A stretch of DNA of 64,000 bases from Desulforegulaceae bacterium (lineage in GTDB: Bacteria > Desulfobacterota > Desulfobacteria > Desulfobacterales > JACKCP01): assembly GCA_034006035.1 (NCBI GenBank), contig JAVETN010000001.1:1-64000 (forward strand), read 5' to 3'. The notes beneath the pieces are model-generated. The model searched no databases. It had not been told where the DNA came from and worked only from the letters and a program-made list of their open reading frames with translations. The translations under genes were made by a program, and so were the position numbers. Below are positions 5,452 to 18,374 of the stretch, piece after piece (position 1 is the first letter of the stretch; every line of letters begins with the position of its first letter).

Positions 5452-6588
5452 TTAAGCTTCAAAACCGATGTCTGATTCAGATGGTTGTTCCACATAAATA
5501 GACTGGGATGGGAAAGCAAAATCAGTTCCAGATTCTGCTACTATCTTTTTTATTTCAAGAGCAAAAGCCTCTTTTATTTCCAGCCATTCTCTCCAAACTG
5601 TTGTTTTTGTAAAACAATAAATCATAAAATCAATTGAACAATCATTGAATTTGTCAATTCTTACAAATAAAGATCCTTGTGGAGGATGGACAAAGTCTTC
5701 TGAATTTAAAAGGTATTCTTCAATTTTATCTCTTACTGTTCTGAGCTGATCAATTGTGCTGTCATACCTTAAGCCTATTGTCCATGAAATTCTTCTGAAT
5801 GTCATCTGGCTGAAATTTATAACTGTGTTGTCGGATAATTTTACATTGGGAACAAATACAGGTGATGCGTCAAACCTTCTTATTTTGGTAGATCTAAAGC
5901 CTATATGTTCAACTGTTCCTTCCACCTCTCCTTCAACCTTGATCCAGTCTCCTATGGAAAAACGGTTTTCAGCAAGAATAAGAATTCCTGAAATCAGGTT
6001 TTTAAATAAATCCTGAGCTCCAAGTGCAACAGCAACACCAAAAAGACCAAGACCGGCAATTATTGGGCCTATTCTTATTCCCCAGATTTCAAGGATGGTT
6101 GCACAGCCGATGAAAACAAAAGTTCCTTTTACAATTTTTTTCAGCCAGTCAATCAATGGCTTTTCAAAAATTCTTTCAAGCTTTTCAAGAACCCAGGTAA
6201 ATGATTCAACAAGATTGAAAAGTACCCAGAACAAAATAAATACTATAGATGATTGAACCAGTTTTTTTGCAACTATTCCTGTTGTGCTTTCCAGGGCCAG
6301 ATATTCTATGGCAACATAAAAACCAAAAATAACAGGAACATAACTTATGGGCTTTTGAAGAGCATCTACTAAGTTGTCATCTATTTTATTAGTGGTTTTT
6401 GCTGCAAAGTTTTCAACTCTTTTAAGGAAAAAGTTTACAAAAAGTTTTCTAAAAAGGACAAAGAAAACAACGATTCCTATTGCAACTAAAATAGAGCCTA
6501 TATCTATTCCTAATACGCCTTCATTCCAGATTTCTTTTACTGCTTGTGCAAAGCCTTTAAAGTTTTTAAAAAAATCATAGTTTTCCAT
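5452..6588 (-). CDS. small-conductance mechanosensitive channel, MscS family
   Basis: A 378-residue MscS-type channel that opens under membrane tension to release solutes during hypo-osmotic shock. Hydrophobic helices at about residues 27-50, 80-100 and 110-130 are followed by the pore-lining helix GLGLFGVAVALGAQDL and the conserved NLISGILILAENRFSIGDW segment. The beta domain (VEGTVEHIGFRSTKIRRFD) and the C-terminal alpha/beta domain come next. It is longer than E. coli MscS because of an extra N-terminal helical part, common in this family. It is divergently arranged from the PurF-like gene across a 303-nt gap. Confidence 0.9.
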   Translation of the reverse strand: MENYDFFKNFKGFAQAVKEIWNEGVLGIDIGSILVAIGIVVFFVLFRKLFVNFFLKRVENFAAKTTNKIDDNLVDALQKPISYVPVIFGFYVAIEYLALESTTGIVAKKLVQSSIVFILFWVLFNLVESFTWVLEKLERIFEKPLIDWLKKIVKGTFVFIGCATILEIWGIRIGPIIAGLGLFGVAVALGAQDLFKNLISGILILAENRFSIGDWIKVEGEVEGTVEHIGFRSTKIRRFDASPVFVPNVKLSDNTVINFSQMTFRRISWTIGLRYDSTIDQLRTVRDKIEEYLLNSEDFVHPPQGSLFVRIDKFNDCSIDFMIYCFTKTTVWREWLEIKEAFALEIKKIVAESGTDFAFPSQSIYVEQPSESDIGFEA

Positions 6589-9017: not shown

Positions 9018-9176
9018 TTGTAATTTTGTCTTTAAAGAATTTGAAAGTTTGATATTTTACAACTTAAAATAATTTTATAACAGATGATTGCAAAGTCAAT
9101 TAAACAGGGTTATTCTAAGAAAATTTTTGTTTATAAAATTTTTTTAATTATCCAGCCATTTTTTTGGAGATATTCA

Positions 9177-11555
9177 ATGAGAAAAGTGTTTTTTCTTTTG
9201 TTTGTACTTGCCTTTGTATTTTACCTTCCATGTTTAGCTTACTCCAAAACAACTAAAGGTCAAATTGTTTTTGCTGTGGTTTTAGACGGAAAAGATTCAA
9301 GATTTGATTTTGATCTTAATGGAGTCAAAAAAAAGATAAAAGAAGCTGCAGGATTTAGTAGAGAGATCGTTTTTCCTGATAAATATATTATAAATTCTGA
9401 GTTTGATTTAAAAAAAACTGAAGCTTGTGCAAAAGATCTTCTTCAAAATAAAGATATTGATATAATTCTTGCTTTAGGGCCCTATGGCTCATCAGTTTTT
9501 AAAAAAATTTCAAATTTACAAAAACCTGTAATTGCAGTTTATTTTATAGGACCGGAAAATTTTTCTCCTGATTTTAAAGGAAATTTGCCACAAAAACCCA
9601 ATCTTTATTATATAAAACCATATCCTTTTGTTTTTTCAGCCGCAGAAACTTTTCATGAGCTAGTGGAATTTTCAAAAATAGAAGTGATTTTAGATCCTTG
9701 GGTTTTTGATTTGTCCGGGAAGAAAAATAAAATTTTGTCCTCAGATTTAAGCTATACTCTTTCATTGCTTAAGGCTGAAAACAGTCCTCTTGAAACCATT
9801 GAAAAAATTGATGAAAAAACTGACTCAGTGCTTATTGCCCCTCTTTTTTCATATTCCCTGGAAGAGTTTGAAGTTCTTGTAAAAGAGCTTAATAAAAGAA
9901 AAATTTACACTTTTTCCCTTAGTGGAAATGAAGAGGTGAAAAAAGGCTGCCTTTCAGGAATACAAAACAATTTTTTTGATGATTCAATAAAAAGAAAGAT
10001 TGGTATTCTGGCTGAAAAAATAATTTCAGGGAAAAATATAGAAAATTCTTCCAAAGTTTTTTTAAAAAAACCAGAGCTTGAAATCAATATGGATACAGCA
10101 GACATTCTTGGGGTTTCTCCAAACTTCAATATTTTCCTTGAGGCGTTTTTGTATTATGGAGATTCAAAAGAAGGAAAAGAGCTGATAAACCTTGTGGATA
10201 TAATTGATTTTTCCATTGAAAATAATTCCCTTATGCGTGCTTTTAAACAGGATACAATAAAGGCCAACTTAGATAAAAAAATAGCAAAAAGTTATATTTT
10301 ACCCCAGGCTGGAGTAATGGCTGAAGGAATTGTAAGGGATGAAGATTCAGCATATTCAAGTTTAGGACAATATCCTGAAAATGAAATAAACCTTAAATTT
10401 TATATAAGACAAACTCTTTTTGATGATGAGGTTTTTACAAGTCTTGATCAGTCAAAAAAACTTTTTCTTGCCGCAATGGAAAAAGAAAAGGCAAAAAAGC
10501 TTGAAACTGCAGCAAAAACAGCTTCTGGATATTTCAAATATTTAAGTGCGGTAAAGCTTAAAGAAATAAGAAGAAATGATCTTGAACTTTCCAAAACAAA
10601 TCTTTTAAAGGCTCAGACAAACTATGAAATCGGTACAAAAGGGCCAGGGGATGTTTTTAGATGGGAAAGCATGACTGCTGATGCAAAAAAAGAACTTTTA
10701 AGGGCTGTAAAAGCAGAAAATCAGGCACTTATCAAACTTGAAAAAATCACAGGAAGAAAGTTTGATAAAAAAAGTTTGTTTGTTTTTCCCAGGCTTGACT
10801 CCAAAATTTTCTGGGTTGATGAAAAAACATTTGAAAAACTATCAAAAAACAGGGCTTCTATTGAGCAAACTAAGAAAATTCTTGGTAAATTCGCCATTGA
10901 AAACTCACCTGAATTAAGTGCCTACACAAAACTTGTTCAAGCTCAAGAAGCAAACTATAAATATTTGAAAAGAAAACATTTTGTTCCAAAGGTTTATTTA
11001 AAGGGAGAATATCTTCAAAGGGTTGGCAGATCAGGAGCAGGTTCAGATGGGGTTTCCTTTGATCTTCCTCCTCCAATGCCTGCTTTTGTTATTGATGAGC
11101 CTAAAGATAATTCCTGGCAAATAGGGTTGGAAGCTGTTCTTCCTATTTTTACAGGGTTAAGAGATAAAAACCTGGCATTAAAATCCGATGAAGAATTAAC
11201 AAGACTTCAAGTAATAAGAAAAGATATTTTGGAAAACATTGAAGAAGATATAAGTCTTCTTGTTGAGGAGGCAGCCTCTTCATATCTTGGGATTTACTTT
11301 GCCAAAGAATCTAAAAATTCTGCTACAAAAAATTTGAAGCTTGTATCAGATGCCTATGAGCTTGGGCTTGCAGATTCTGTTGATTTAATTGATGCTCAAC
11401 ATTCATATACAGGAGCAGATGTAATGCTTTCAGCTTCCCTCTACGATTTTATGGAAAAAATTTATCTTATTCAGGCAAGGCTTGGATTTGAAGATTTTTC
11501 AGATATCCCCGACAAAAAAGAAAAACTCATTGAGCTTATCAGGAGAAAGCCATGA
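9177..11555 (+). CDS. fusion protein: ABC substrate-binding-type domain + TolC-family outer-membrane channel
   Basis: The start at 9177 is chosen because GGAG lies seven bases upstream and the protein then begins with a clean signal peptide (MRKVFFLLFVLAFVFYLPCLAYS); an ATG 93 bases earlier lacks both. The product is 792 residues. Residues about 25-320 resemble the periplasmic ABC_sub_bind family: LALGPYGSSVFKKI, PVIAVYFIGPENF, and the closing LEINMDTADILGVSPN, which matches the family's usual final INLKTAKALG-type strand. Residues about 350-790 show the TolC pattern of two repeats of long helices and beta strands (LSKTNLLKAQTNYEIGTKGPGDVFRWES; LVSDAYELGLADSVDLIDAQHSY). Its stop overlaps the ATG of the efflux adaptor gene, so it is the outer-membrane factor of this RND operon. 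Confidence 0.82.
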   Translation: MRKVFFLLFVLAFVFYLPCLAYSKTTKGQIVFAVVLDGKDSRFDFDLNGVKKKIKEAAGFSREIVFPDKYIINSEFDLKKTEACAKDLLQNKDIDIILALGPYGSSVFKKISNLQKPVIAVYFIGPENFSPDFKGNLPQKPNLYYIKPYPFVFSAAETFHELVEFSKIEVILDPWVFDLSGKKNKILSSDLSYTLSLLKAENSPLETIEKIDEKTDSVLIAPLFSYSLEEFEVLVKELNKRKIYTFSLSGNEEVKKGCLSGIQNNFFDDSIKRKIGILAEKIISGKNIENSSKVFLKKPELEINMDTADILGVSPNFNIFLEAFLYYGDSKEGKELINLVDIIDFSIENNSLMRAFKQDTIKANLDKKIAKSYILPQAGVMAEGIVRDEDSAYSSLGQYPENEINLKFYIRQTLFDDEVFTSLDQSKKLFLAAMEKEKAKKLETAAKTASGYFKYLSAVKLKEIRRNDLELSKTNLLKAQTNYEIGTKGPGDVFRWESMTADAKKELLRAVKAENQALIKLEKITGRKFDKKSLFVFPRLDSKIFWVDEKTFEKLSKNRASIEQTKKILGKFAIENSPELSAYTKLVQAQEANYKYLKRKHFVPKVYLKGEYLQRVGRSGAGSDGVSFDLPPPMPAFVIDEPKDNSWQIGLEAVLPIFTGLRDKNLALKSDEELTRLQVIRKDILENIEEDISLLVEEAASSYLGIYFAKESKNSATKNLKLVSDAYELGLADSVDLIDAQHSYTGADVMLSASLYDFMEKIYLIQARLGFEDFSDIPDKKEKLIELIRRKP

Positions 11556-12658
11556 AAAAAAATATTTTAATTTTTGCCTTGGTATGTTTTTTTTCAGTGT
11601 TTTATTCATGCGGTGAAAAAAAAGAAGCTGAAAACAAAGATGAAACAAAAAGATTAAGACCTGTAAGAGCGGTAAAAGCAGAAATCCCTCAAAACGGAAA
11701 AGTAAAGATATTTTCCGGGGTAATTAGTTCTTCTCTTAGCTCAAAGCTAAGTTTCAAGGTCCCTGGCACAATTTGTAAAATCAATGTGGATAAAGGGGAC
11801 AATGTTAAAAAAGGAGAAGTTATTGCAAGCCTTGATTCCATAGATTATGAGCTAAAGGTTCAGGAAGTTTTAGGATCCCTTGCAAGAGCAAAAGCCCAAT
11901 GGAAAAATGCAGAAGCAGTCTATTCAAGAGTGACATCTCTTTATGAAAGAGGAAATGCATCCATTAGTGAAGTTGATCAGACAAGAGCTGCTTTTGATTC
12001 TGCCCGGGCAGTTGTTGAATCTGTTGAAAAGCAGGTCGAACTTGTAAAAAGAAATCTTGAATATACTAAGCTTTTTGCACCTATGGATTGCAATATTGCT
12101 TCAGTTCACTCAGAAGAAAATGAAAATATCCAGCCGGGTCAGCCCATTGCAGTAGTAAATTGCGGAAATTCAATGGAAGTAAACATTCAGGTCCCATCGT
12201 CTTTTTTAAGCGAGGTCAAAAAAGGAAAGCCTGCTTTGGTAAAAATTGATCCGTTTAAAGACAAAAAATTTAAGGGAATAATCAAGGAAGTCGGCACTTC
12301 ACCCAATGCTTTAAATACTTCCTATCCTGTTACAATTTCCCTTGGAAAAAATTTGGAAGGAATAAGGCCTGGGATGTCTGCAATTGTGGAAATAGAACCA
12401 AAGTCTTTGGAATCAAACTCCTATCCTGTTTTACCTCCTGTATGCGTGGGAGAGGATTCAAGAGGAAATTTTGTCTGGAAACTGGATTTTGAAAACAAAA
12501 CAATAGGGATAATTCAAAAGGTATATGTTGAACTTGGTGATTTTTCCGGCTCAAAAATAATAGTCACTAAAGGAATTGAACCCGGTGAATTTTTTGTTTC
12601 AGCAGGAGTAAGTCAGGTACGCCAGGGTTTAAAGGTAAGGGTTGAAACTCAAAATTGA
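11552..12658 (+). CDS. RND efflux periplasmic adaptor (membrane fusion protein), lipoprotein
   Basis: A 368-residue HlyD/AcrA-type adaptor that links an inner-membrane RND pump to an outer-membrane channel. A lipoprotein signal is visible (VFYSC, lipidated Cys20). A barrel-sandwich half (LSFKVPGTICKINVDKGDNVKKGEVIASLD) precedes a coiled-coil hairpin rich in Ala/Glu (residues about 95-165). The second half-motif comes next (LFAPMDCNIASVHSEENENIQPGQPI), followed by beta-barrel and membrane-proximal domains. Its ATG overlaps the TGA of the outer-membrane gene (ATGA), indicating translational coupling. The pump gene follows 89 bases later. Confidence 0.92.
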   Translation: MKKNILIFALVCFFSVFYSCGEKKEAENKDETKRLRPVRAVKAEIPQNGKVKIFSGVISSSLSSKLSFKVPGTICKINVDKGDNVKKGEVIASLDSIDYELKVQEVLGSLARAKAQWKNAEAVYSRVTSLYERGNASISEVDQTRAAFDSARAVVESVEKQVELVKRNLEYTKLFAPMDCNIASVHSEENENIQPGQPIAVVNCGNSMEVNIQVPSSFLSEVKKGKPALVKIDPFKDKKFKGIIKEVGTSPNALNTSYPVTISLGKNLEGIRPGMSAIVEIEPKSLESNSYPVLPPVCVGEDSRGNFVWKLDFENKTIGIIQKVYVELGDFSGSKIIVTKGIEPGEFFVSAGVSQVRQGLKVRVETQN

Positions 12659-12747: not shown

Positions 12748-15700
12748 TTGTATTTAACAAGAAAAGCAATTTCAAAAAGCAGGGTAACTTTTATTTTTCT
12801 TTTAATAATTATTGCCGGAGGAATTTATTCCTATTTCAGTCTTCCAAGAAGTTATGATCCTGGTTTTATTTTAAGAGTTGCAAGGGTGGTTACTTATTTT
12901 CCGGGAGCTTCTCCTGAAAGAGTTGAACAGCTGGTAACAGATCAGCTTGAAAAAGTTATAATGGAAATGCCTGAACTAAACTATGTGGAAAGCAGCTCAA
13001 TGGCAGGTGTTTCTCTTATTAATGTATGGGTGAAAGGCGAATACACAGATCTCAGGCCCATCTGGGACAAGCTTAGAAGAAAGGTTGAAAAGGCTGAAAG
13101 AAACCTTCCAGATGAGGCAGCAGCTCCAATTGTAAACGATGAATACGGTGATATTTTTGGAGTAACCATTGCTGTTATAGGAGATGATTTTTCCTTTAAA
13201 GAACTTAAGGATGCAGGTGAAAAGTTAAGGGACGAGCTCCTTGACATGGAAAATGTTGCAAAAGTTGAGCTTTATGGAGATCAGGATGAAAAAATTTATA
13301 TAAACTATTCCAACTCAAGACTTTCCCAGTTGGGCATTACCCCCTATTATTTGATGAATCTTCTTGGAACAAGAAATATTCTTATTCCAGGGGGATCGAT
13401 TAATGTGGGAACTGAGCGGGTGGTTCTTGAGCCCAGTGGAAATTTTATTCAAATAGAAGACCTTAAAAAAACTGTAATTCCCATTCCAAAATCAGGGGAA
13501 ACAATTTTTCTTGAAGACATTGCTGAAATCAAAAGAGGCTATATTGATCCCCCCATGAATCTGATGAGGGCAAATGGTAAAAGAGCTGTTGGGGTTTCCC
13601 TGTCAATGAAAGAGGGGGGAAATATAATTCAGCTTGGGGAAAGTGTGAAAAATCTTTTAAAAGAAGTGGAATCTGAATTTCCCTATGGAATTTCCTTTGA
13701 ACTTGTAAATTTTTCTCCCAAGGAAGTTCAGGACAAAGTCCTTCTTTTTCAGGAAAATCTTCTTCAGTCTGTTTTGATTGTTCTTTGTGCAACCCTTGTT
13801 ATGCTTGGTTTTAAAACAGGATTTGTGGTTGCTTCTCTTATTCCTTCAGCAATACTTATGACTTTTTTTGGGATGAAGTTTTTCAATATAGGAATAGATC
13901 AAATGTCCCTTGCCTCCCTTGTTATTGCCCTGGGGATTCTTGTGGATAATGCAATTGTTGTTACAGAATCGGTGCAAGTGGATATTTATAAGGGTAAACG
14001 GCCTATTCAGGCAGCAGTAAATTCTGCAAAGGAATTGTCAGTTCCGCTTTTAACTTCTTCTGCAACAACAGCAGCAGCTTTTCTTCCCATTTATTTAGCA
14101 GAGTCGGAAACAGGGGAATACACAGCCCCTCTTTTTAAGGTTGTGAGTATTGCACTTTTTTCTTCATGGATATTGTCTCTTACAATGATTCCTCTTTTAT
14201 GTATAATTTTCATAAAAAAAGGGAAAAGCAAAAAAAACTCAAAGTTTAAATCCCTGGTAATTATTTTCAGGGTTTTGTACAGAAAAATGCTTTTTATATC
14301 TTTAAGATATAGGTATGTTTTTATAGTTATTGTCTTTGTTATGTTTTTTTTATCAATGAAACTTTTTTCAAGGCTTCCTGTTCTTTTTTTTCCTCCTTCG
14401 GACAGACTTATTTTCAAGGTTGAAATGAGGCTTGCTCCTGGTACTTCAATTTCTACTACAGAAAATATGGTTAAGTTGGTTGAAGGTTATATTTTAGAAA
14501 ATCTTATGTATGAAAATAAAAAAGATAGAGAAATAATTTCTGAAAAGCTTGAAAGCCCTGCTGATTCTTCTGTTTTTGGAGAAAAAAAATTCAAGGGAAT
14601 TATAAATTTTGTAACTCATTTAGGCAATGGAGGACCAAGATTTCTTATAACGCATAAAACAGAGGTGGGTCAGCCCCATTATTCTCTAATGGTCATCAAT
14701 GTTGCACAATTATCAGATATTTCTCTTATTTCAGAAAAACTTGAAGAATTTATTTTGTCAAACTTTCCTGATGTTGATCTTAAAATAAAAAGAATCCAAA
14801 ATGGCCCTCCAATTTCAGATCCTGTTCAAATAAGGCTTTCAGGTAAAGACAGCGAGCGTTTGTTTGAAATGGTGAATTCTGTAAAGAAAAAGCTTGGTGA
14901 AATTAAAGCTGTGAGAAATATTACTGACGACTGGGGGGAAAGAACAAAAAAAATTATTGTAGAAGTTGATTATCTCAAGGCAAGGCGTGCAGGGGTATCC
15001 AGCAAAGATGTGGCTGTTTCCCTTTATACTGCTGTAAGCGGTTTTCAGATGACTGATTTTAGAGAAGATGACAAAATAATTCCTATTCTTCTCAAATCAG
15101 ATGAAAACAAAGAAAAACTCATAGACAGGCTGGAATCCCTTGCAGTCTATTCAAGTGCTACAGGCCAAAATGTTTTGCTTGGGCAGGTCTGCGATCTTAG
15201 ATATGCCTGGGAAGCCTCTGAGATAAAACGAAGAGATAGAAAAAAAACTGTTACAGTAAGTTCTGGTCTTGAAAAGGGATATACAGCAAATGAAGTAATG
15301 AAGTTAATGGAACCCTGGCTTCAATTAAAAGATATTGAATGGGGACTTGGTTATAAGTATGTTTTTGGAGGAGAAGTTGAGGAGTCTATTGATGCAAACA
15401 AGTCAATTATGGATAAGCTTCCTGTCTGTGGTTTTATAATTTTAATGATTTTAATTATCCAGTTCAACTCGGTGAGGAAAACAATTATAATTTTAAGTAC
15501 AATTCCAATGGCCACCATGGGGGTTGCAGCAGGTCTTTATATAATGAACTCTTACTTTGGATTCATGACTCTTCTTGGAATAGTGGCTCTTGCAGGTATA
15601 GTAATAAATAATGCAATTGTTCTGCTTGAAAGAATCAAGGTTGAAATTGACAATGGTCATTCTTCTCAATTAGCTGTAATTTATGCTTGTGAGCGAAGAA

Positions 15701-15930
15701 TGAGGCCAATCCTTCTTACCACCATAACAACAATAATGGGGGTTTTACCTCTTTATTTTGGTGGAGGGGCAATTTGGGAGCCAATGGTTGTTTCAATTAT
15801 TGCAGGACTTGGTTTTTCCACAATATTAACCCTTGGAGTTGTTCCTATGCTTTACTGTGCTTTGTTTCGTGTCAGGTTCAGGGGAGATGAACTTGAGCAA
15901 ATGAAAGATCTTGAACAAGAATTTGATTAG
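12748..15930 (+). CDS. RND efflux permease, AcrB/HAE1-like family
   Basis: A 1060-residue inner-membrane proton-driven pump. It starts at a TTG codon with TTGGAG seven bases upstream. The N-terminus reads YLTRKAISKSRVTFIFLLIIIAGGIYSYFSLPRSYDP, the first helix and periplasmic entry of this family. The proton-relay helix is seen as VIALGILVDNAIVVTESVQ, and a repeated second half holds GIVALAGIVINNAIVLLERI. Twelve hydrophobic segments in two sets flank two large periplasmic loops. It is the third gene of the efflux operon. Substrates cannot be deduced; the unusual channel partner with a ligand-binding-type domain suggests a small-molecule substrate. Confidence 0.93.
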   Translation: MYLTRKAISKSRVTFIFLLIIIAGGIYSYFSLPRSYDPGFILRVARVVTYFPGASPERVEQLVTDQLEKVIMEMPELNYVESSSMAGVSLINVWVKGEYTDLRPIWDKLRRKVEKAERNLPDEAAAPIVNDEYGDIFGVTIAVIGDDFSFKELKDAGEKLRDELLDMENVAKVELYGDQDEKIYINYSNSRLSQLGITPYYLMNLLGTRNILIPGGSINVGTERVVLEPSGNFIQIEDLKKTVIPIPKSGETIFLEDIAEIKRGYIDPPMNLMRANGKRAVGVSLSMKEGGNIIQLGESVKNLLKEVESEFPYGISFELVNFSPKEVQDKVLLFQENLLQSVLIVLCATLVMLGFKTGFVVASLIPSAILMTFFGMKFFNIGIDQMSLASLVIALGILVDNAIVVTESVQVDIYKGKRPIQAAVNSAKELSVPLLTSSATTAAAFLPIYLAESETGEYTAPLFKVVSIALFSSWILSLTMIPLLCIIFIKKGKSKKNSKFKSLVIIFRVLYRKMLFISLRYRYVFIVIVFVMFFLSMKLFSRLPVLFFPPSDRLIFKVEMRLAPGTSISTTENMVKLVEGYILENLMYENKKDREIISEKLESPADSSVFGEKKFKGIINFVTHLGNGGPRFLITHKTEVGQPHYSLMVINVAQLSDISLISEKLEEFILSNFPDVDLKIKRIQNGPPISDPVQIRLSGKDSERLFEMVNSVKKKLGEIKAVRNITDDWGERTKKIIVEVDYLKARRAGVSSKDVAVSLYTAVSGFQMTDFREDDKIIPILLKSDENKEKLIDRLESLAVYSSATGQNVLLGQVCDLRYAWEASEIKRRDRKKTVTVSSGLEKGYTANEVMKLMEPWLQLKDIEWGLGYKYVFGGEVEESIDANKSIMDKLPVCGFIILMILIIQFNSVRKTIIILSTIPMATMGVAAGLYIMNSYFGFMTLLGIVALAGIVINNAIVLLERIKVEIDNGHSSQLAVIYACERRMRPILLTTITTIMGVLPLYFGGGAIWEPMVVSIIAGLGFSTILTLGVVPMLYCALFRVRFRGDELEQMKDLEQEFD

Positions 15931-16175: not shown

Positions 16176-18374
16176 ATGAGTAATAAAGATCCTGTTGTTT
16201 TTAACGATCCTGATAAAATTGCTGATTTTATCATTGAAAAAGTAGGAAAGAATGTGACATTGGCTATGCAGCTGGGGCTGGGTAAACCTAACAACATAGC
16301 AAATGCATTATACCGAAAAGCAAAAAGTGATCCTAGTGTCAAACTTAAAATTGTTACTGCTTTATCACTTGAACCCCCTGTATGGTCAAGTGATCTTGAA
16401 AGAAGATTTTTAGAACCCCTTTCCAAAAGACTTTGGGGCGGCTATGTTGAGTTTGATTACGCTAGAGATGTCAGGCTTAAAAAACTTCCACCAAACATTG
16501 AAGTTGGTGAGTTTTTCTATAAAGCCGGTGCTTTTATGAACAACAACCATATGCAGCAAAACTATATAAGCACAAACTATACCCATGCAGCAAGAGACGT
16601 TGTTGCCGCAGGGATGAACGTTGCTGGAGCACTTCTTTCCGCAAGAGAAATAGACGGCAAGATGCAGTATTCTGTTTCATGTAATGGAGATACTGCAATG
16701 GATGCTCTTAAAAACATGAGAGAAAAAGAAAAAAAGGATCCTTCTTACAAAGGTCTTGCAGTTGGTGAAATAAACAAACACCTTCCTTTTATGTATGGAG
16801 ATGCAGTTACTGATCCTTCTAATTTTGATGCAGTTCTTGTTGGTCCTCAATCTGATTTTACTCTTTTTGGAGTGCCTAAAGAGGCAATTAACGCAGCAGA
16901 TTATACCATAGGTATCCTCTCAAGTACTCTTATTCCTGATGGAGGAACCCTTCAGATTGGAATTGGATCTCTTGGAGATGCCATAGCTTATGGACTTATT
17001 ACCAGACACAAAGAAAATGATAAATATAAGAATTTTCTTGAAAATTCTGGAATACTTGAAAAGTACGGAGATTTGATTGAACAAGTGGGAGGTTTTCACT
17101 CCTTTGATAAAGGTCTTTACGGAAGTACTGAAATGATGGTTGATTCCTTTGTTGACCTTTATAAAAATGATGTGATGAGAAGAAGATGTTATGATGATGA
17201 GTATATCCAGGAGCTGGTCAGTGAGGAAGTTTTTAAGGACTATAAACCTAGTTCTGAGGGTTTGGTAAGGCTTGTAAAAGATGGTGCAGTTCAGCCTAAG
17301 CTAAATGAAGCTGATCTTGAATATTTAAAATATTTTGGAGTTTTTAAAGAAGATGTTGTTCTTGAAGGTGATACTCTTAAGTGTGGCGGTAAAGAATTTT
17401 CATCGGATTTAAGAGATTCTGCAAATCTTAAAGAGGTGGTGGAAAACTGCCTTGGTACTGATCTTAAAAACGGATACTGGATTCATGCAGGTTTTTTCCT
17501 TGGGCCAACCAGTCTTTACAATACACTTAATGAAATGAGTGAAGAAGAGCGTGCTCTTATAAACATGACAAGTGTTTTAAATGTCAACCAGCTTTATGCA
17601 AACAATAGATATGGTTCTGAAAAACTCAAAATTCTTCAAAGACCTAAAGGCAGATTCATTAATGCAGGTCTTATGGTTTCTCTTAATGGAGCCATTTGTT
17701 CAGACGGACTTGATAATGGTAAGGTTGTAAGCGGTATTGGCGGGCAGTACAACTTTGTAGCTCTTGCACATGCACTAGAGGATGCAAGGGGTGCAATAAT
17801 GATAAGAAGCACAAGAACTTCAGGCGGGCAAGTTAATTCAAACATTGTTTATAATTACGGGTATTGCAGTGTCCCAAGACATTTAAGGGATATTGTAGTT
17901 ACTGAGTATGGAATTGCGGACTTAAGAAGCAAGTCTGACAAAGAAGTAATGAAAAAATTGCTGAATGTCGCTGATTCAAGATTCCAGGGCGGCCTGCTAG
18001 AACAGGCACAAAAATATGGGAAAATTGAAGCTGACTATCAAATTCCTCTACAATACACTCAAAACTATCCTGAAAAAATTGAAAAAATTATTGCTGATCA
18101 CAGGGCAGATGGATTGTTCCCTATGTTTCCTTTTGGAACCGATTTCACTGACGATGAAGTGCAAATTGGTAAAGCTTTGAAGATGTTTAAAGCAAAAGCT
18201 GACAAGAGCAAGCTTTCTATTGTTCCAGGTATTTTTAAGGCGTTTACTTCTGCTATCCCAGAAGGAGCAAAGCCTTATCTTGAAAGACTTGATCTGATGA
18301 ATCCATCGGATTTTAAAGAAAAACTACTTCAAAAAATTGTTATCTCAGCTTTAAAAGACAGTGGAGCAGCGTAG
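16176..18374 (+). CDS. acetyl-CoA hydrolase/transferase family protein (large form)
   Basis: A 732-residue class I CoA-transferase fold protein, longer than the usual 430-550-residue family members. The CoA-binding and catalytic region is seen as LQIGIGSLGDAIAYGL and YGSTEMMVDSFVDLY, in which the Glu of STEMM aligns with the catalytic Glu that forms the glutamyl-CoA thioester. The C-terminal domain has RSTRTSGGQVNSNIVY and VVTEYGIADLRSKSDKEV, the closing motif of the family. The N-terminal region (FIIEKVGKNVTLAMQLGLGKPNNIANAL) and a middle insertion are extra. A strong GGGGAG site precedes the ATG. The acyl substrate is unknown; acetate or other short acyl groups are likely. Confidence 0.82.
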   Translation: MSNKDPVVFNDPDKIADFIIEKVGKNVTLAMQLGLGKPNNIANALYRKAKSDPSVKLKIVTALSLEPPVWSSDLERRFLEPLSKRLWGGYVEFDYARDVRLKKLPPNIEVGEFFYKAGAFMNNNHMQQNYISTNYTHAARDVVAAGMNVAGALLSAREIDGKMQYSVSCNGDTAMDALKNMREKEKKDPSYKGLAVGEINKHLPFMYGDAVTDPSNFDAVLVGPQSDFTLFGVPKEAINAADYTIGILSSTLIPDGGTLQIGIGSLGDAIAYGLITRHKENDKYKNFLENSGILEKYGDLIEQVGGFHSFDKGLYGSTEMMVDSFVDLYKNDVMRRRCYDDEYIQELVSEEVFKDYKPSSEGLVRLVKDGAVQPKLNEADLEYLKYFGVFKEDVVLEGDTLKCGGKEFSSDLRDSANLKEVVENCLGTDLKNGYWIHAGFFLGPTSLYNTLNEMSEEERALINMTSVLNVNQLYANNRYGSEKLKILQRPKGRFINAGLMVSLNGAICSDGLDNGKVVSGIGGQYNFVALAHALEDARGAIMIRSTRTSGGQVNSNIVYNYGYCSVPRHLRDIVVTEYGIADLRSKSDKEVMKKLLNVADSRFQGGLLEQAQKYGKIEADYQIPLQYTQNYPEKIEKIIADHRADGLFPMFPFGTDFTDDEVQIGKALKMFKAKADKSKLSIVPGIFKAFTSAIPEGAKPYLERLDLMNPSDFKEKLLQKIVISALKDSGAA

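Follow-up and report, generated by a model that had tools for sequence, protein, structure and literature searches.

Can an outer-membrane exit channel carry a binding domain of the kind that serves importers and, if so, what would such a domain do there? In tripartite pumps, the exit channel is generally regarded as a passive duct that the adaptor and the pump open. The question is raised by a gene in the window analysed here, a 64,000-nucleotide stretch of contig JAVETN010000001.1 from a Desulforegulaceae bacterium: a single open frame, 9177-11555, encodes 792 aa ending at 11555 in which a domain resembling a class I substrate-binding protein (SBP) precedes a TolC-type channel (Table 1).

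Table 1. Features of the fusion gene and of the operon that it opens; positions are those of the window.
Feature	Position	Strand	Basis
Ribosome-binding site GGAG, ATG 7 bases further on	9166..9169	+	sequence
Fusion gene: signal peptide, SBP-like domain and TolC-type outer-membrane channel, 792 aa	9177..11555	+	
Sec signal peptide, residues about 1-24, without lipobox	9177..9248	+	
Class I SBP-like domain, ABC_sub_bind/TrpX type, residues 28-322	9258..10142	+	
Connection joining both modules, residues 324-337	10146..10187	+	
TolC-type channel, two OEP repeats, residues 338-775	10188..11501	+	
Periplasmic adaptor subunit (RND_mfp, TIGR01730)	11552..12658	+	E 5e-61
RND pump, HAE-type permease (PF00873)	12748..15930	+	E 1e-163

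Architecture of the fusion protein

The start codon at 9177 is sound, with GGAG upstream and a clean Sec signal peptide after the ATG. Pfam detects OEP (PF02321) in two stretches of the window protein (E 3e-34), beginning at residue 342, and ABC_sub_bind (PF04392) at residues 207-323 with 20.9-24.3 bits, just below the gathering cut-off of 25.9 bits. NCBIfam returns weak TolC matches only for the window protein, and none for its N-terminal domain (N-domain). Of the exit channels, OprM and CusC have an N-terminal lipid anchor and TolC has none; thus, the absence of a lipobox-like motif from the window protein is compatible with TolC-type membership. Such a motif is found in one of the 75 family members compared. 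The connection between the modules is 14 residues long in 67 of these members and 13 in seven, and this near-constant length in 74/75 proteins from many phyla fits a fixed geometry and not a floppy tether.

Fold of the N-terminal domain and the channel

The family profile and the AlphaFold2 alignment were built from 62 homologous N-domains, 48 of which match PF04392 singly (E <= 0.01); the relative from Sulfuricurvum kujiense scores 38.6 bits. The use of this profile in place of the window copy alone makes detection of the fold more sensitive, and PDB 3LKV (1.9e-11), 3LFT and 6HNI are matched. The AlphaFold2 model of the N-domain, based on the same 62-domain alignment and, like all structure predictions here, of a monomer only, has a pLDDT of 87 and a pTM of 0.85. 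In Foldseek its best PDB match is 3LFT (E 3e-13, TM 0.69/0.73), with 3LFT, CD0873 and 3LKV on top (E about 1e-13, TM about 0.7) and all other class I folds ranked below them. The three leading structures, 3LFT, CD0873 (6HNI) and 3LKV, are class I SBPs with bound Trp, Tyr and Phe (PMC6816091). The full-length model resembles both TolC and 3LFT, and its channel half matches the TolC, OprM and CusC structures (TolC fold, E 1e-15).

The sequence-only reading of this DNA had proposed a one-frame fusion of a signal peptide, an ABC_sub_bind-type domain and a full TolC-like channel, and the 792-aa frame, the Pfam and profile matches and the AlphaFold2/Foldseek comparison bear it out; the periplasmic-binding fold, checked by structure prediction, is present. 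As modelled, the N-terminal part is the binding-protein fold of the ABC_sub_bind family, set in frame with a complete TolC-type channel.

Operon and genomic context

The stop codon of the fusion gene overlaps the adaptor start codon (ATGA, 11552-11555), and the RND pump at 12748-15930 has MexK as its closest solved relative. The TIGR01730 and PF00873 matches agree with the earlier view that the two next genes are the adaptor and pump of the same RND operon. No permease or ATPase partner of an ABC importer is found in the operon, which holds the adaptor and RND pump. The genome encodes five OEP channels; two of them are fusions, and these are its only PF04392 proteins. An acetyl-CoA hydrolase-like gene lies downstream of the RND operon both in the window (16176-18374) and at a second locus (L034, 14847-17036); this shared neighbour suggests that the two loci are orthologous between families.

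An association with RND genes also emerged from the genome survey: at 47 of the 57 full-length loci, adaptor and pump lie within 4.5 kb of the fusion gene and share its strand. Two more loci have the pump beside a contig end, and in a further two the pair is convergent. In Desulfuromusa kysingii, a Nitrospira MAG and Sulfuricurvum kujiense, ABC-2 exporter genes and an HlyD adaptor are found instead of the RND pair, one of these three cases being an annotated isolate plasmid. Thus, since ABC-2 exporter operons also use the fusion channel, the domain belongs to the channel and not to RND efflux. In a Nitrospinota MAG (L109, 4940-9421), the fusion channel gene comes after MlaD-domain (PqiB-like) genes, without an RND pair.

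Distribution across genomes

Within the same order, the Desulfobacterales, 390 genomes were sampled and 54 of them, from 32 of 150 genera, encode related fusions, which also occur in other orders of the phylum. A scan of contigs with the window protein as single query gave no match, the window copy being too divergent; the query that worked is an alignment of four typical members. In the species-genome scan, 62 fusion loci were recovered from Thermodesulfobacteriota, Myxococcota, Pseudomonadota, Nitrospirota, Nitrospinota, Acidobacteriota, Gemmatimonadota, KSB1, Planctomycetota, Bacteroidota, Calditrichota, Latescibacterota and Krumholzibacteriota. The fusion spans roughly a dozen phyla, with many loci from MAGs, so that single taxon labels need caution. 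Isolates that carry it include Desulfoluna limicola, Desulfosarcina alkanivorans, Desulfuromusa kysingii and Sulfuricurvum kujiense (Campylobacterota), the last with a protein named ABC transporter substrate binding protein in RefSeq. No description of this architecture was found in an open-access library without most subscription journals or any preprint servers, and an earlier description is possible. The outer-membrane factors with an N-terminal class I SBP-like domain are a widespread and apparently undescribed subfamily.

Several variants occur. The 726-aa TolC family protein of an RND operon in Cetobacterium somerae (Fusobacteriota; L186, 4440-6620) has an SBP-like domain that is shortened, divergent and below Pfam detection. 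One copy of the same order (L039, 5475-7874) has a single TAG that breaks the channel part. In a Chromatiales MAG (L147, 6707-8607), a gene for the SBP-like domain only stands directly before what is left of an RND pump gene, its C-terminal part; the locus is probably a decayed operon.

Origin and co-divergence of the two halves

The fused N-domains form one branch of the N-domain tree (SH-aLRT 99); their nearest relatives are stand-alone domains encoded near MFS-type transporters, and canonical SBPs are further off. The fused SBP domain is of single-clade origin. In the tree of the channel half, nine unfused TolC proteins group on one side (SH-aLRT 99); several branches are long, including that of the window copy, the exact placing of which is unsure. 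Mean pairwise identity is 36% for the N-domain and 41% for the channel, and the divergences of the two halves correlate with r = 0.77 (2,775 pairs). One widespread subfamily of channels has the SBP-like domain throughout.

Stand-alone ABC_sub_bind genes occur at L045 (6874-11483), L049 (1751-6901) and L050 (6857-11081), where neighbouring genes encode about 300-450 unannotated N-terminal residues and then an MFS domain; an unusual SBP/MFS pairing is possible. Elsewhere in the order, ABC_sub_bind matches often fall within open frames 800-1,260 aa long; these may encode sensors that use the domain as their input module.

The window copy and a second copy in the same genome

The window copy is among the most divergent members of the family (about 24-25% identity to others) and is without D125 and the S138-G139 consensus. 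A second fusion gene of the same genome (G000:C4:12799-15132, minus strand; about 5797-8111 of L033) has an adaptor and an RND pump of its own beside it; its SBP-like domain contains two stop codons, a TAA and a TAG, while the channel part is open. This lineage may be relaxing constraint on the SBP-like domain, and so is not the best representative of the family for experiments. Where the channel gene of the second copy meets the adaptor gene, a short tandem duplication (L033, about 5600-5800) repeats the peptide MKDYIQNN...FQKYGTLCSGFNKEKK.

Residues of the binding cleft

In TrpX, the amino-acid ligand is contacted by T108, A127, T129, D152 and N233 (PMC9382623). Among the 75 fused members, the positions of T108, A127 and T129 are hydrophobic in 81%, 92% and 92%, respectively, that of N233 is R, Q or H in 70, and D152 is not kept; the window copy has P, Y, I, P and S at the five positions. 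Canonical and MFS-associated proteins mostly stay polar there. With the TrpX contacts replaced in nearly all fused members, binding of amino acids in the manner of TrpX is unlikely, judging from residue identities. Other positions are firmly held: D37, G101, R273 and N304 are invariant in the fused family, and position 125 is D in 63/75. Mean conservation of the cleft-side loops (0.39) does not exceed that of the far side (0.45) or of the helices (0.43), in a comparison that used secondary structure only, without coordinates. At the level of aligned residues, the changed cleft is open to two readings: it may accept a new ligand, or it may be packed and closed with a structural role.

Proposed role and alternative explanations

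In TolC, the first helix of the channel runs up from the equatorial belt towards the outer membrane; by this topology, the SBP-like domains, three to a channel, are expected round the belt, far from the pump entrances. They would lie in the outer periplasm and act as accessory modules of the channel, not of the pump. YbjP runs along the same first helix of TolC (PMC13082787). The SBP-like domain is proposed to respond, most likely, to a periplasmic ligand that is not an amino acid and is probably hydrophobic or amphiphilic, with lobes that would open and close and so adjust how the channel assembles or opens at the adaptor contacts. A module that is fixed to the channel and has a ligand-responsive or assembly role, with putative ligand binding and gating, is given a probability of roughly 0.45. 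The hydrophobic contact positions count against a response to ligand in that they vary and could equally pack a permanently closed cleft.

The close and main rival, itself a possible account, is that the domain is purely structural, with ligand binding lost, and forms a collar by which the channel is kept steady in the envelope or against peptidoglycan. There are collar analogues in the lipoprotein YbjP and the lipidated N-terminus of OprM, which wrap the TolC surface. The loss of the amino-acid contacts, a cleft that is not preferentially conserved and a connection that is short and constant in length all suit a collar, and the 74/75 members without a lipobox are proteins that another anchor could help. 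On TolC, YbjP occupies the region from the equatorial domain to the membrane, and the authors of that work found an allosteric role unsupported (PMC13082787). However, a two-lobed binding fold of 300 residues is kept over many phyla, with the polar D37, R273 and N304 invariant and D125 found in 63 of the 75 members, and a collar would need no complete hinge and cleft.

Capture of a periplasmic substrate and its passage to the RND pump for export is unlikely. While an SBP fold in an RND operon invites the idea, and hydrophobic cleft positions would suit the substrates of HAE-type pumps, the first channel helix is near the outer membrane in known tripartite structures and the connection has only about 14 residues, so that, by analogy with those structures, passing a substrate straight to the pump looks difficult on geometric grounds. 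The same channel family, moreover, works with ABC-2 exporters, which mostly draw their substrate from the cytosol or inner membrane. A precedent for capture is CusF, the periplasmic carrier of the Cus system (PMC8277102). Of the earlier suggestion that the domain could capture or sense a substrate for the pump, the binding fold stands; the TrpX-type contacts, by contrast, are lost, and the cleft loops show no special conservation.

An accidental joining of an ordinary ABC-importer SBP to a channel gene, by recent fusion, misassembly or as a pseudogene, is highly improbable: the two stop codons in the SBP-like domain of the second copy and the plain importer label of the S. kujiense protein would fit it, but it is contradicted by the genome survey, in which dozens of genomes from about a dozen phyla share the fusion with its linker and operon conserved, and by the lack of an importer permease in the operon and of any further PF04392 protein in the window genome. 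An assembly chimera or local accident is ruled out, as the fusion recurs in dozens of unrelated genomes.

Relation to known systems and meaning

The fusion shares with TolC, OprM and CusC (PF02321) the two OEP repeats, the TolC fold and an operon with adaptor and RND pump; it differs in its about 300 extra N-terminal residues of SBP fold and in having no lipidation motif. The ABC_sub_bind/TrpX SBPs (PF04392; 3LFT, 3LKV and CD0873, 6HNI) have the same whole-domain fold as the fused domain (TM about 0.7), and a C-terminal L-x-IN-x-x-x-A motif and the family profile match are held in common. These SBPs, however, serve an importer, whereas the fused domain sits on an exit channel with its amino-acid contacts replaced and, in the window copy, a Pfam score under the cut-off. 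The nearest relatives, the stand-alone ABC_sub_bind proteins near MFS-type transporters of Desulfobacterales, have no channel attached and most retain polar amino-acid contacts. Two accessory proteins of known pumps are also comparable. YbjP, a partner of E. coli TolC, is an extra periplasmic module near the equatorial belt, where the fused domain would also lie (PMC13082787); by contrast, YbjP is a separate, unfused DUF3828 lipoprotein of some Enterobacterales and is not of SBP type. CusF is a periplasmic accessory of an RND pump that binds substrate, as the fused domain could, but it is a small metal-binding protein, not joined to the channel, and delivers copper to CusB.

A wider reading, held tentatively, is that a channel subfamily of many phyla bears one receptor domain per subunit, such that the exit duct itself may sense periplasmic compounds and be gated or assembled by ligand, whether the pump is of the RND or ABC type. 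A two-lobed binding domain that is built into a channel subfamily and stays in step with the channel over many phyla would allow regulation or loading at this point to be tested, and annotations that name such proteins merely as parts of ABC importers would be corrected.
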